64,000 nt of DNA, from the NCBI RefSeq assembly GCF_009392895.1, contig NZ_CP045488.1, positions 2,046,001 through 2,110,000 of the forward strand, read 5' to 3'. Position 1 is the stretch's first letter. The number at the start of each line of letters is the position of its first letter. The notes below the pieces were generated by a model. That model had not been told where the DNA came from. It was given only the letters and a program-made list of their open reading frames with translations, and searched no databases. Position numbers and translations under genes: made by a program. This DNA is from Natronorubrum aibiense. GTDB taxonomy: Archaea; Halobacteriota; Halobacteria; Halobacteriales; Natrialbaceae. Shown here piece after piece: positions 38,503-42,870 of this stretch.

Positions 38503-39300
38503 TCAGGCCTCGAGCGCGAGGCCGGCTTCCGTAAGCGCTTCCTCGGTCGAAAGATCGTCGTGGACGACGCCAGCGACGGCGCGGGCGATCGCTTCGGGAT
38601 CGTCGTGCTGGAAGATCGACCGACCCATCGAGACGCCGGCACCGCCGGCGTCCATCACGCCGCGGACCATCTCGATCGTCTCGCGGTCAGTCCCTTTGGA
38701 GCCGCCGGCGATGACGACCGGGAGGCGAGTCGATTCGACGACGTGCTGGAAGCTCTCGGCGTCGCCGCTGTAGCCCGTTTTGACGATGTCCGCACCGAGT
38801 TCCTCGGCGAGTCGCACCGCGTGGCCGAGCGCTTCGGGATCTTCGGGGTCGACGCCCGGGCCGCGGGCGTAGGCCATCGCGAGGACGGGCATCCCGAACT
38901 GTTTCGCGGTCGCCGTGACCTCCGAAAGCTGGGCGATCTGGTCGGGCTCGTGGTCCGAGCCGACGTTGATGTGGAAGGAGACGGCGTCAGCGCCGACGCG
39001 AACGGCCTCCTCGACCGTGCCGGTCATTCGCTTGTCGTTCTCGTCGGGGCCGATCGTCGTCGAGCCGTTGAGGTGGACGATGTACCCTTTGTCGTTTTTG
39101 TTGTCGTGGACGCGGGGTGCGATTCCTTTCTGCGTGAGGACTGCGTCGGCACCGCCGCTGGTGACCCCGTCGATCGTCGATTCGATGTCTTTCAGCCCCT
39201 GGCAGGCACCGATCGTGATGCCGTGGTCCATCGGGACGATTACGTACGTGCCGTCTGTGCCGATTCGATCGAGTCGTGCGTCGATTCCTGTCGTAGTCAT
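38503..39300 (-). CDS. aroA': 2-amino-3,7-dideoxy-D-threo-hept-6-ulosonate synthase
   Basis: A 265-residue class I aldolase of the archaeal FBA/ADTHS family. IVPMDHGITIGACQG near residue 20 and ADIVKTGYSGDA (Schiff-base lysine) and PVVIAGGSKGTD are the key blocks. ADTHS condenses a deoxy-ketohexose phosphate with aspartate semialdehyde, the first archaeal step towards chorismate. It begins only 24 bases after trpA, so it is apparently the last gene of a trpC-trpB-trpA-aroA' unit. The gap holds a palindrome gcaagcttgc at 39313-39322. A fructose-bisphosphate aldolase role is less likely given this context. Confidence 0.92.
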   Translation of the reverse strand: MTTTGIDARLDRIGTDGTYVIVPMDHGITIGACQGLKDIESTIDGVTSGGADAVLTQKGIAPRVHDNKNDKGYIVHLNGSTTIGPDENDKRMTGTVEEAVRVGADAVSFHINVGSDHEPDQIAQLSEVTATAKQFGMPVLAMAYARGPGVDPEDPEALGHAVRLAEELGADIVKTGYSGDAESFQHVVESTRLPVVIAGGSKGTDRETIEMVRGVMDAGGAGVSMGRSIFQHDDPEAIARAVAGVVHDDLSTEEALTEAGLALEA

Positions 39301-39324: not shown

Positions 39325-40188
39325 TTATGGCTGTTCTGGTTCCGGGGCGTCGATCGGGTCCGCGTCAGTGCCACCGTCGGCACCGCGGATCGCACCGCGT
39401 TTGAGTTCCTCGGCTTTGGCCTCGAGGTCGGCCACTGGGTCGTCGCTTTCGGCGACGATATCGATGAGCGCGCTGCCGACGATGACGCCATCCGCGCCGG
39501 CTTCGATGATCTCGGCCGCGTGGTCGCCCTCGCTGACGCCGAAGCCGACCGCCTTCGGAACGCCGTCGGAACACGGTTCCGAGACGTCGTACTCCTCGAG
39601 CCGGGTCAGGCTGTCGTGGGTCGCGTTCGAGACGTCCGCGCGCGCGCCCGTCGTGCCGAGTCGGGCCTGCACGTAGACGAAGCCCGACGCCTGCGACATG
39701 ATCCGCTCGAGCCGTTCGCCCTCGGTCGTCGGCGCGACGATGAAGACGAGGTCAAGGCCGTGGTCGTCACAGGCCGCACGCAGCGGGTCCGACTCCTCTG
39801 CGGGCAGGTCGGGAACGATGATCCCCGAGAGGCCGGCCTCGGCCGCGCGTTCGACGAACGGACGCACGTCGGGTTCGTCTCCATACTGCAAAATCATGTT
39901 ATAGTACGTCATCACCAGCAGCGGAGCCTCGGTCTCGAGGTCGTCAACGAGCTCGAAGAAGCCGGCCGGCGTCGTCCCGGCGTCGAGCGCGCGGTTGATC
40001 GCCGCCTGAATCGTGGGGCCTTCTGCGATCGGTTCGGAAAAGGGCAGGCCGAGTTCGATCAGGTCCGCGCCGCCGCGGTCGAGGGCTTCGACGTACGCTT
40101 TGGTGTCCTCGAGCGATGGATCGCCCGCGGTGAGATAGGTGATGAGCGCGGGGTGGTGCTCGCGGATGGCCGCTTCGATGTCGCTCAC
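39325..40188 (-). CDS. trpA: tryptophan synthase alpha chain
   Basis: A 287-residue TIM-barrel subunit cleaving indole-3-glycerol phosphate to indole and glyceraldehyde 3-phosphate. The catalytic Glu is in [16 protein letters not shown] and the catalytic Asp in [11 protein letters not shown]; the phosphate-binding [10 protein letters not shown] and DGVIVGSAL are near the C-terminus. The start overlaps the trpB stop by four bases (ATGA), typical of coupled synthesis of the two subunits. Confidence 0.97.
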
Positions 40189-41450
40189 TGGCCAAACACC
40201 TCCACGTCCGGAGCCGCCTCGAGATCACGGTTCTCGGTCTCCTCGAGCACCGTTTCTAAGTCCTTGTCGCCGCGGCCGGAGACGTTGACGACGACGAGGT
40301 CGCCGAGTTCTTCGTGTTGCTCCTCGAGATAGCCGAGTGCGTGACTCGACTCGAGGGCGGGGATGATCCCCTCGAGATTCGAGAGGCGGTGGAAGCCGTT
40401 GAGCGCGGCCTCGTCGTCGACGCTTGCGGGCGTCACGCGCCCGATGTCGACGAGATGGGAGAGTTCGGGGCCGACGCCGGCGTAATCGAGGCCGGCGCTG
40501 ACGCTGTGGGATTCCATAATCTGGCCGTCCTCGCTCTGGAGGAGTTTGGTCATCGCGCCGTGGAGCACGCCGTCGGTCCCCGTCGAGAGCGTCGCGGAGT
40601 TCGGTGCCAGCGCGTTTTCCTCGTCGATCTCGAGACTCGAGCCGCCGGCCTCGACGGCGTAGAGGTCGACCTCGTCGTCGGGGACGAAGGCATGAAACGT
40701 CCCCATCGTGTTCGAGCCGCCGCCAGCGCAGGCGACGACGCTGTCGGGGAGTCGTCCCGCCCGCTCTCGAATCTGCTCGCGAGCTTCCTGTCCGATAACG
40801 GCCTGAAAGTCCCGCACCAGTTTCGGGAACGGATGTGGACCGACGACGGAGCCGATCACGTAGTGAGTGGTCTCGACGGTCGTTGCCCAGTCACGCATCG
40901 TCTCGTTGATCGCCTCTTTCAGCGTGCCGCTGCCGGCCGTAACGGGGTTTACCTCCGTGCCGTTCATCCGCATCCGGTAGACGTTCGGTCGCTGGCGGTT
41001 GATGTCCGTCCGACCCATGTAGATCTCACAGGGCATGTCGAGATGCGCCGCCGCCATCGCGGTCGCGGTGCCGTGTTGGCCCGCGCCGGTTTCGGCGATG
41101 ATCCGCTCTTTGCCCATGTACTTCGCGAGCAGGACCTGACCGAGCGCGTTGTTCAGTTTGTGTGCGCCACCGTGGACCAGATCCTCGCGCTTGAGGTAGA
41201 TCTCTCGGTCGTAGCGCTCGCTCAGCCGCTCCGCACGCTGCAGCGGTGTCGGTCGGCCGCCGAAATCGCGCATTCGCTCGCGGAACTCGTCCATGAAGCC
41301 GTCCTCGTTTTCGAGGACGTAGCGTTCGTAGGCGTCCTCGAGTTCCTGGACAGCCGGCATCAGGGCTTCGGGGACGTACTGGCCGCCGTACTCGCCGAAC
41401 GTGGCCTCGCTGTCGCGGTCGCGTCGGTGGTCGTGATCGCTCGTACTCAT
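40185..41450 (-). CDS. trpB: tryptophan synthase beta chain
   Basis: A 421-residue PLP subunit (TrpB1 type) joining indole and serine. The PLP lysine is in [14 protein letters not shown], the catalytic glutamate in [15 protein letters not shown] and the phosphate loop in [13 protein letters not shown]. Its length and intact interface region fit a TrpA-associated beta subunit. It starts 31 bases after the trpC stop and overlaps trpA by four bases. Confidence 0.97.
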
Positions 41451-41481: not shown

Positions 41482-42270
41482 TCATGTCTGATCGTCTCCG
41501 TCGCTTGCGTTCACGAGTCGTCGCGTGTTCTCGGTTACGTCGCTGTCGCCGCCGGCGTGATCCATGATGGCGCTGCCGACCAGTAGGGCGTCGGCACCCG
41601 CCTCGCGCATCCGCCGGACGTCCGCCGGTGACCCGATTCCGCTCTCGGCGATCAACGTCACGTCGTCCGGCACGTGGGCCGCCACCGACTCGAAGGTTTC
41701 GAGGTCCACCTCGAGTCGCGCCAGATCCCGGTTGTTCACGCCGATGAGTTTCGCACCCGCCTCGAGAGCCGTCTCGAGTTCCGTGCGGTCGTGGACTTCG
41801 ACGAGTGGCTGGAATCCACGCTCGCGGGCGGCGGCGATGAGCCCCTCGAGATCGTCGACGAAACGAACGATGAGTAAGAGGAGGTCGGCTTCGACGACGT
41901 CGAGCTGGTCTTCTCGGACGACGAAGTCCTTTCGAAGAACGGGAACGTCGACGGCCTCGCGGACGCGCGTCAGCGCCTCCGGCGACCCACCGAAGTGGCT
42001 CGGTTCGGTGAGCACCGAAATCGCCGTCGCACCGCCGTCGATCATTGCTCGTGCCAGTTCGACAGGGTCGTCGTCGCGGGTCCCGTCAGCAGTTGGACTC
42101 GTCGGCTTCACTTCGGCGATTACTGGGACGCGACCGTCGGATTCGGCTTGTGCCAGCGCGTCGGAGAGCGATCGCGCAGCCACGGACACCGTCTCGTCGT
42201 CACCACCTCGCTCCCGAGCCGCGTCGAGAATCGAGGCGACCGCGGGGGCGAGCTCCGTCTCGGAGTTCAT
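41482..42270 (-). CDS. trpC: indole-3-glycerol-phosphate synthase
   Basis: A 262-residue TIM barrel that cyclises CdRP to indole-3-glycerol phosphate. Active-site blocks include [31 protein letters not shown] and [13 protein letters not shown]. First gene of the trpCBA unit. The ATG at 42270 lies just 2 bases from a dyad containing two TGTACA boxes (42273-42300) that also covers the TATA position, so repression at the promoter is likely. The N-terminus is short relative to bacterial TrpC but normal for archaea. Confidence 0.95.
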
Positions 42271-42272
42271 TG

Positions 42273-42300
42273 TTGTACATCAACGTACTCATATGTACAA
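42273..42300 (-). promoter_or_regulatory. trp promoter-operator with two TGTACA (TRP-box-like) sites
   Basis: Perfect inverted repeat: ttgtacat (42273-42280) and atgtacaa (42293-42300) with a 12-base spacer. Each arm contains TGTACA, the TRP-box consensus bound by TrpY in Methanothermobacter. On the minus strand the distal box and a tacatat TATA-like element overlap at 21-29 bases before the trpC ATG, and the proximal box overlaps the predicted start of a leaderless mRNA. Confidence 0.65.
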
Positions 42301-42322
42301 AAGCCTTGCGCCATACACGTCC

Positions 42323-42399: not shown

Positions 42400-42870
42400 A
42401 TGGAGGACGTCACGGACGCCGGAATCTACGCGCGGGAATCGTCGTATCTCGATCGATACATCCAGCTCGGTGCCGCCAGCGGGCGCGTCCTGAGTGTCTC
42501 GTTTCCCACGACGCCCGCGGACGACGCCGAGACCGACCATCCCGTACTCGACCGAATCTTCGAATATCTCGACGGGCTCGAGGAGGTCGAGTTCGACGAC
42601 GTGCAGGTTGCCCTGACCGTTCCGACCGACCAGCGCGCCGTCTTAGAACACGTTCGGGAGATCCCCTACGGCGAACAAGTCGATGTCAGGGCGCTCGCCC
42701 GGATGACGCCCGAACTGGACCCGGACGACGAGGACGATATCATCCTCGTTCGAACCGCCTTAGACGAGAATCCGACGCCGATCCTCATTCCGGACCACCG
42801 CGTTCGCGACGGTCCGAGCGCTGCGCCCCCAGCTATCGAACAGAAACTGCGCTCGCTCGAGGGGCTGTAG
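42400..42870 (+). CDS. alkyltransferase-like (MGMT-family) protein without catalytic cysteine
   Basis: A 156-residue protein with the C-terminal DNA-binding fold of O6-methylguanine-DNA methyltransferase. REIPYGEQVDVRALARM matches the recognition-helix region, and the active-site loop reads ILIPDHRVRDG where true methyltransferases have IPCHRV; the acceptor cysteine is an aspartate at residue 132. It therefore cannot dealkylate DNA by the usual mechanism and belongs with alkyltransferase-like proteins, which bind O6-alkylguanine and hand it to nucleotide excision repair. ATG at 42400 is chosen over an in-frame GTG/ATG upstream. Confidence 0.82.
   Translation: MEDVTDAGIYARESSYLDRYIQLGAASGRVLSVSFPTTPADDAETDHPVLDRIFEYLDGLEEVEFDDVQVALTVPTDQRAVLEHVREIPYGEQVDVRALARMTPELDPDDEDDIILVRTALDENPTPILIPDHRVRDGPSAAPPAIEQKLRSLEGL

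Follow-up and report, generated by a model that had tools for sequence, protein, structure and literature searches.

Helically phased TGTACA box arrays at haloarchaeal tryptophan promoters and a probable TrpY-family regulator

Known regulators of tryptophan genes

In bacteria, TrpR is a tryptophan-sensing repressor that acts on palindromes overlapping a promoter. It works in a way similar to the system considered here, but its protein and its operator sequence are unrelated to TrpY and the TRP boxes. Among archaea, control of trpEGCFBAD by TrpY and TRP boxes is already known from Methanothermobacter thermautotrophicus (PMC6737238). The protein TK1227 of Thermococcus kodakarensis also belongs to the TrpY family, but trp in that organism is under the unrelated activator Tar (TK0271) and not under the TrpY homologue, so that membership of the family is not in itself proof of function (PMC6737238). 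The haloarchaeal branch of TrpY was left without an assigned function in a 2019 study (PMC6737238), and little is known of how haloarchaea control their amino-acid genes. In a 2024 study, both tryptophan operons of Haloarcula were described as co-regulated through an extra factor left unnamed; haloarchaeal TrmB affects both operons indirectly, with no TrmB site at the trp promoters (PMC10817205).

The trpC promoter of Natronorubrum aibiense, located in the 64-kb stretch of DNA analysed here (the window), resembles the Methanothermobacter system in its box word, in the placing of boxes over a trp promoter, in the presence of a TrpY-family regulator and in having trp genes as the target. The box word is TGTACA, which we take to be the published TRP box of Methanothermobacter TrpY. 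The two systems differ in that trpY of Methanothermobacter is autoregulated and adjoins the trp operon, the two promoters overlapping, whereas here it is unlinked and unboxed, and in that two operons and the ADH synthase (2-amino-3,7-dideoxy-D-threo-hept-6-ulosonate synthase) are covered here. The haloarchaeal boxes stand in strict 10-bp phase. A literature search, with most subscription journals outside its range, found no earlier report of TRP boxes in haloarchaea; the strict phase, the coverage of two operons together with the first aromatic step, and the lack of any sign of autoregulation may be new features.

The box array at the trpC promoter

The features of the window discussed below are as follows.
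38503–39300, minus strand: ADH synthase, which starts the archaeal aromatic pathway; its gene begins 24 bp beyond trpA (TIGR01949, 364.6 bits)
39325–40188, minus strand: trpA, tryptophan synthase alpha (TIGR00262, 244.4 bits)
40185–41450, minus strand: trpB, tryptophan synthase beta (TIGR00263, 596.8 bits)
41482–42270, minus strand: trpC, indole-3-glycerol phosphate synthase (NF041303.1, 432.7 bits, cut-off 380)
42273–42300, no strand assigned: TRP-box array (putative operator), a 28-bp dyad with outer arms TTGTACAT and ATGTACAA and a central GTAC, centres at 10-bp steps (from the sequence; conserved at 80/80 loci)
42274–42279, no strand assigned: TGTACA box beside the predicted transcription start (from the sequence; identity from the published TRP box)
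42285–42288, no strand assigned: central GTAC (AGTACGT on the trpC strand), GTNC outside Natrialbaceae (from sequence and conservation)
42294–42299, no strand assigned: TGTACA box overlapping the TATA-like element (from the sequence)
42296–42303, minus strand: TATA-like element CTTTTGTA, CTTATGTA in many relatives (from sequence and conservation; predicted function)
42305–42310, minus strand: BRE-like element CGCAAG, conserved across the class (from conservation; predicted function)

A preliminary description of the locus had reported a perfect dyad directly before trpC, with TGTACA in both arms, overlapping the TATA region and the predicted start of an operon that extends to the first step of the chorismate pathway. 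These statements hold. On the plus strand, the arms TTGTACAT (from 42273) and ATGTACAA (42293–42300) enclose the 12-bp spacer caacgtactcat and match exactly, with TGTACA at 42274–42279 and 42294–42299. Overlooked at that stage was a third, central GTAC in the spacer (42285–42288), by virtue of which GTAC recurs three times at steps of exactly 10 bp, centred on 42276.5, 42286.5 and 42296.5. The dyad taken as the unit therefore stands as a sequence but not as the operator unit, which is better described as an array of two to four boxes in 10-bp phase than as a lone dyad.

The dyad ends 3 bp ahead of the trpC start codon (A of the ATG at 42270). Read along the minus strand, the order is the BRE-like CGCAAG, the TATA-like CTTTTGTA (centre some 30 bp ahead of the start codon), the boxes and the ATG. 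A TATA-to-start distance of 26–27 bp has been mapped for one leaderless haloarchaeal gene (PMC2894021), and this spacing places the predicted trpC start within about three bases of the ATG; the array would therefore cover the promoter from the TATA box to a near-leaderless start. In a profile search, trpC, trpB, trpA and the ADH synthase gene all exceeded curated cut-offs. In Halobacterium, trp genes and aldolase were treated as one operon across a 25-bp gap that lacks a TATA box (PMC4162585).

A chance origin of the dyad was ruled out by shuffled sequences, genome-wide pattern counts, an operator-model scan and conservation. The pattern TGTACAT-N(8–16)-ATGTACA occurs once in the 64-kb window; 100 shuffles that preserved dinucleotide composition contained no copy. 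Across the 4.35-Mb genome, TGTACA-N(6–30)-TGTACA was found twice (the reversed-pattern control three times): at the trpC site and, as the only other close pair, on another replicon with a different spacing. This second pair (C2:258431–258464) is spaced 28 bp and lies within a longer near-dyad, TGTACAGTG...CACTGTACA. A 28-column operator model, built from 27 distinct sequences of trpC promoters only, had a single match in the genome at E < 0.05, namely the trpC site.

Conservation among related haloarchaea was followed through 80 trpC loci, all of which carry a pair of TGNNCA boxes a few bases before trpC, spaced 20 bp from centre to centre (a few with one extra change). In Natrialbaceae, nearly every base from the TATA element to the ATG is fixed and the sequence farther upstream is almost random; outside this family the boxes loosen to TGNNCA and the centre to GTNC, at unchanged positions. 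Judged from these sequences, it is almost certain that an operator is present at the trpC promoter.

Arrays at trpD and in other Halobacteriota

The operator model gave its best match in the N. aibiense genome at the trpC site (E 1.7e-7) and its second best at C1:3189213–3189233 (E 0.30), 47 bp upstream of a trpD match starting at C1:3189280. Over 106 haloarchaeal genomes the model found matches in 85, and of 38 best matches compared by eye with the trpC coordinates listed, 36 lay directly upstream of trpC. Fourteen followed-up matches that seemed to lie elsewhere resolved into 11 before trpD, one at trpC itself and two that look like chance. At least two boxes are present in 36/37 trpD promoters, with spacings of 10, 20 or 30 bp in 71 of 74 pairs and a layout relative to the start that differs from that at trpC; no boxes were found at one trpD locus, L155, whose orientation is ambiguous. 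The box array is near-restricted to trp promoters, and the predicted regulon takes in trpD(FEG) as well as the trpC operon. The paired arrays agree with the published induction, in parallel, of trpCBA-aldolase and trpDFEG in H. salinarum deprived of aromatic amino acids (PMC4162585).

Beyond the haloarchaea, 14 kb around trpC was searched in each of 20 other Halobacteriota, several of which we read as methanogens. TGTACA ranked best among the 64 palindromic hexamers in these surroundings. All five perfect TGTACA pairs 8–45 bp apart were spaced by 20 or 30 bp; with one mismatch allowed, spacings of 10, 20, 30 and 40 bp gave 8, 8, 3 and 3 pairs, where other spacings gave about 0.4, counts that are not independent events because some arrays yield several pairs. 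Phased arrays precede trpC or a probable trpE in about 12 of the 20 genomes, where the trpE assignment in some genomes follows from position and neighbours. One of these (G402) carries TTGTACAATAATGTATATATATGTACAA, with the same three-box, 28-bp layout as the trpC site of the window. The other eight genomes also encode TrpY and showed no array near trpC by the criteria used; one of them, G386, is boxed before trpB2 instead. In Methanothermobacter, trpB2 is a reported TrpY target. A genome-wide search, which gave L205–L208 as arrays outside the trp operons, placed arrays before trpB2 in two genomes, G307 and G386. The TRP-box logic thus appears, on sequence grounds, to be older than the haloarchaea.

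Some further occurrences of the box were noted. In these non-haloarchaeal Halobacteriota, phased TGTACA arrays precede an LctP-type permease gene in G307 and, in G316, a gene for an unassigned protein of 256 aa with an ECF ATPase gene next in line; both are candidate new TrpY targets. Four successive TGTACA boxes with 11-bp instead of 10-bp spacing are found at G307:C1:2636612–2636650, and a 21-bp tandem repeat containing TGTACA (TGTACACGACACACCACCCGC) is present in at least five copies at G271:C1:628821–628931.

The TrpY homologue and competing explanations

The search for a TrpY homologue in the N. aibiense genome returned a 167-aa protein (L095:1189–1692), first picked up through a weak ACT match, that matches the TrpY_fam profile NF053754.1 over residues 2–164 (242.7 bits, cut-off 180). 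Its C-terminal ACT-like domain (residues 102–159) is matched by PF01842 and PF13840 at E values of about 7e-4 to 1e-3, below the Pfam cut-off. The N-terminal part, where a winged helix would be expected, is covered by the full-length TrpY_fam match, with no Pfam HTH match and no solved relative of that part; the TrpY profile, run against solved structures, matched ACT domains weakly and also gave ankyrin matches that look spurious. Another ACT protein (L093) was set aside in favour of L095, no DNA-binding part having been seen in it. TrpY_fam matches occur in 292/292 haloarchaeal genomes, nearly always as a single copy, and in 122 of 130 genomes of the phylum at or over the cut-off; G308 and G317 are among the few that lack the family. 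As both TrpY and trpC occur throughout the class, their presence or absence is uninformative within haloarchaea. The segment IEIP-T-IA---DRRVVD-T is nearly invariant from haloarchaea to other Halobacteriota, as expected if the DNA word is common to both groups. In N. aibiense, trpY lies about 0.57 Mb from trpC and is not linked to trp genes. No arrays were found upstream of trpY in the trpY promoters examined, and this promoter was rejected as a third target.

In the proposed mechanism, TGTACA-like boxes that follow each other at every helical turn (10 bp from centre to centre), on a single face of the DNA, and that extend over the promoter from the TATA box to the transcription start, would be read by this TrpY-family protein, encoded elsewhere in the genome and composed of a putative DNA-binding N-terminal part and an ACT-like domain. 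TrpY would sense tryptophan through the ACT domain and, when loaded, bind neighbouring boxes and block TBP/TFB and RNA polymerase, so that trpCBA and the ADH synthase gene would be shut off; the matching array would do likewise at trpD(FEG). The TrpY reading of the trp boxes is well supported because of the conserved boxes, the arrays at the second operon and in other Halobacteriota, and the TrpY_fam protein found in this genome and in nearly all of the phylum. It is very likely, to judge from the sequences, that TrpY is the protein that binds the array. Repression that depends on tryptophan is reasonably probable by analogy with Methanothermobacter. Taken as a whole, this explanation is likely in view of the array, its phasing and conservation, its near-restriction to trp promoters and the universal TrpY homologue, and the extra factor reported to act on both Haloarcula operons (PMC10817205) also speaks for it. 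Points against it are the Thermococcus homologue, the unlinked and unboxed trpY, the eight TrpY-bearing genomes with no array near trpC, and the description of the Haloferax trpCBA promoter as not tightly regulated (PMC13147458). The earlier suggestion that TrpY-type control extends to haloarchaea is thus supported by the conserved boxes and the homologue, with corrections as to the array as unit, the inclusion of trpD(FEG), an older origin and an unboxed trpY.

The main rival keeps the operator but assigns it to another reader, with TrpY acting elsewhere; the most plausible candidate is a member of the Lrp/AsnC family, for example LrpA2. This protein is singled out because aromatic amino acids affect its mRNA level, which rises 14.9-fold in their absence in H. 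salinarum (PMC4162585); haloarchaea encode several Lrp-like proteins, and the LrpA1 site has been suggested to overlap a promoter (PMC2894021). Against this, the box is the word published for TrpY, almost every genome of the phylum with such arrays encodes a TrpY_fam protein, arrays also precede trpB2, and a TGTACA-bearing Lrp site was not found in the literature searched; an Lrp-type reader is therefore unlikely. Core promoter constraint alone (BRE, TATA and near-leaderless start, with no operator) might account for the joint conservation of CGCAAG, CTTATG and the boxes, and the array overlaps them. It is nevertheless very improbable: conservation spans the entire TATA-to-start spacer, trpD has the same boxes in a different layout relative to the start, methanogens have the boxes with other core elements, spacings of 10, 20 or 30 bp are no property of core promoters, and the operator model has no matches to promoters in general. 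Direct action of the sugar-responsive regulator TrmB at trp promoters is the least probable of all, despite the TrmB-dependent induction of both tryptophan operons, aldolase gene included, in Haloarcula hispanica, because the same study saw no TrmB sites or motif occurrences around these operons and deduced that a further factor is involved (PMC10817205).

On the TrpY reading, the palindromes before the trp genes resemble a component of an ancient on/off switch. An evenly balanced, broader proposal is that the arrays would be a helically phased operator of variable length (two to four boxes, one turn apart) for multimeric TrpY, part of an ancestral, vertically kept tryptophan switch of Halobacteriota that in haloarchaea would serve two operons only, include the first aromatic step via the aldolase gene and dispense with trpY autoregulation. 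A named protein and a precise operator are brought together in genetically tractable species; the results suggest a single trp switch shared by methanogens and haloarchaea, which also controls entry to the whole aromatic pathway, and they indicate a simple spacing rule of one box per helical turn.

The divergent neighbour of trpC (42400–42870, plus strand) contains an MGMT-type domain (PF01035) in which the acceptor Cys of the PCHR motif is replaced by Asp (PDHRV), for which reason its product looks like an alkyltransferase-like protein. This Asp is present in all 64 MGMT-type copies recovered from the 80 haloarchaeal trpC loci, 57 of which adjoin trpC.
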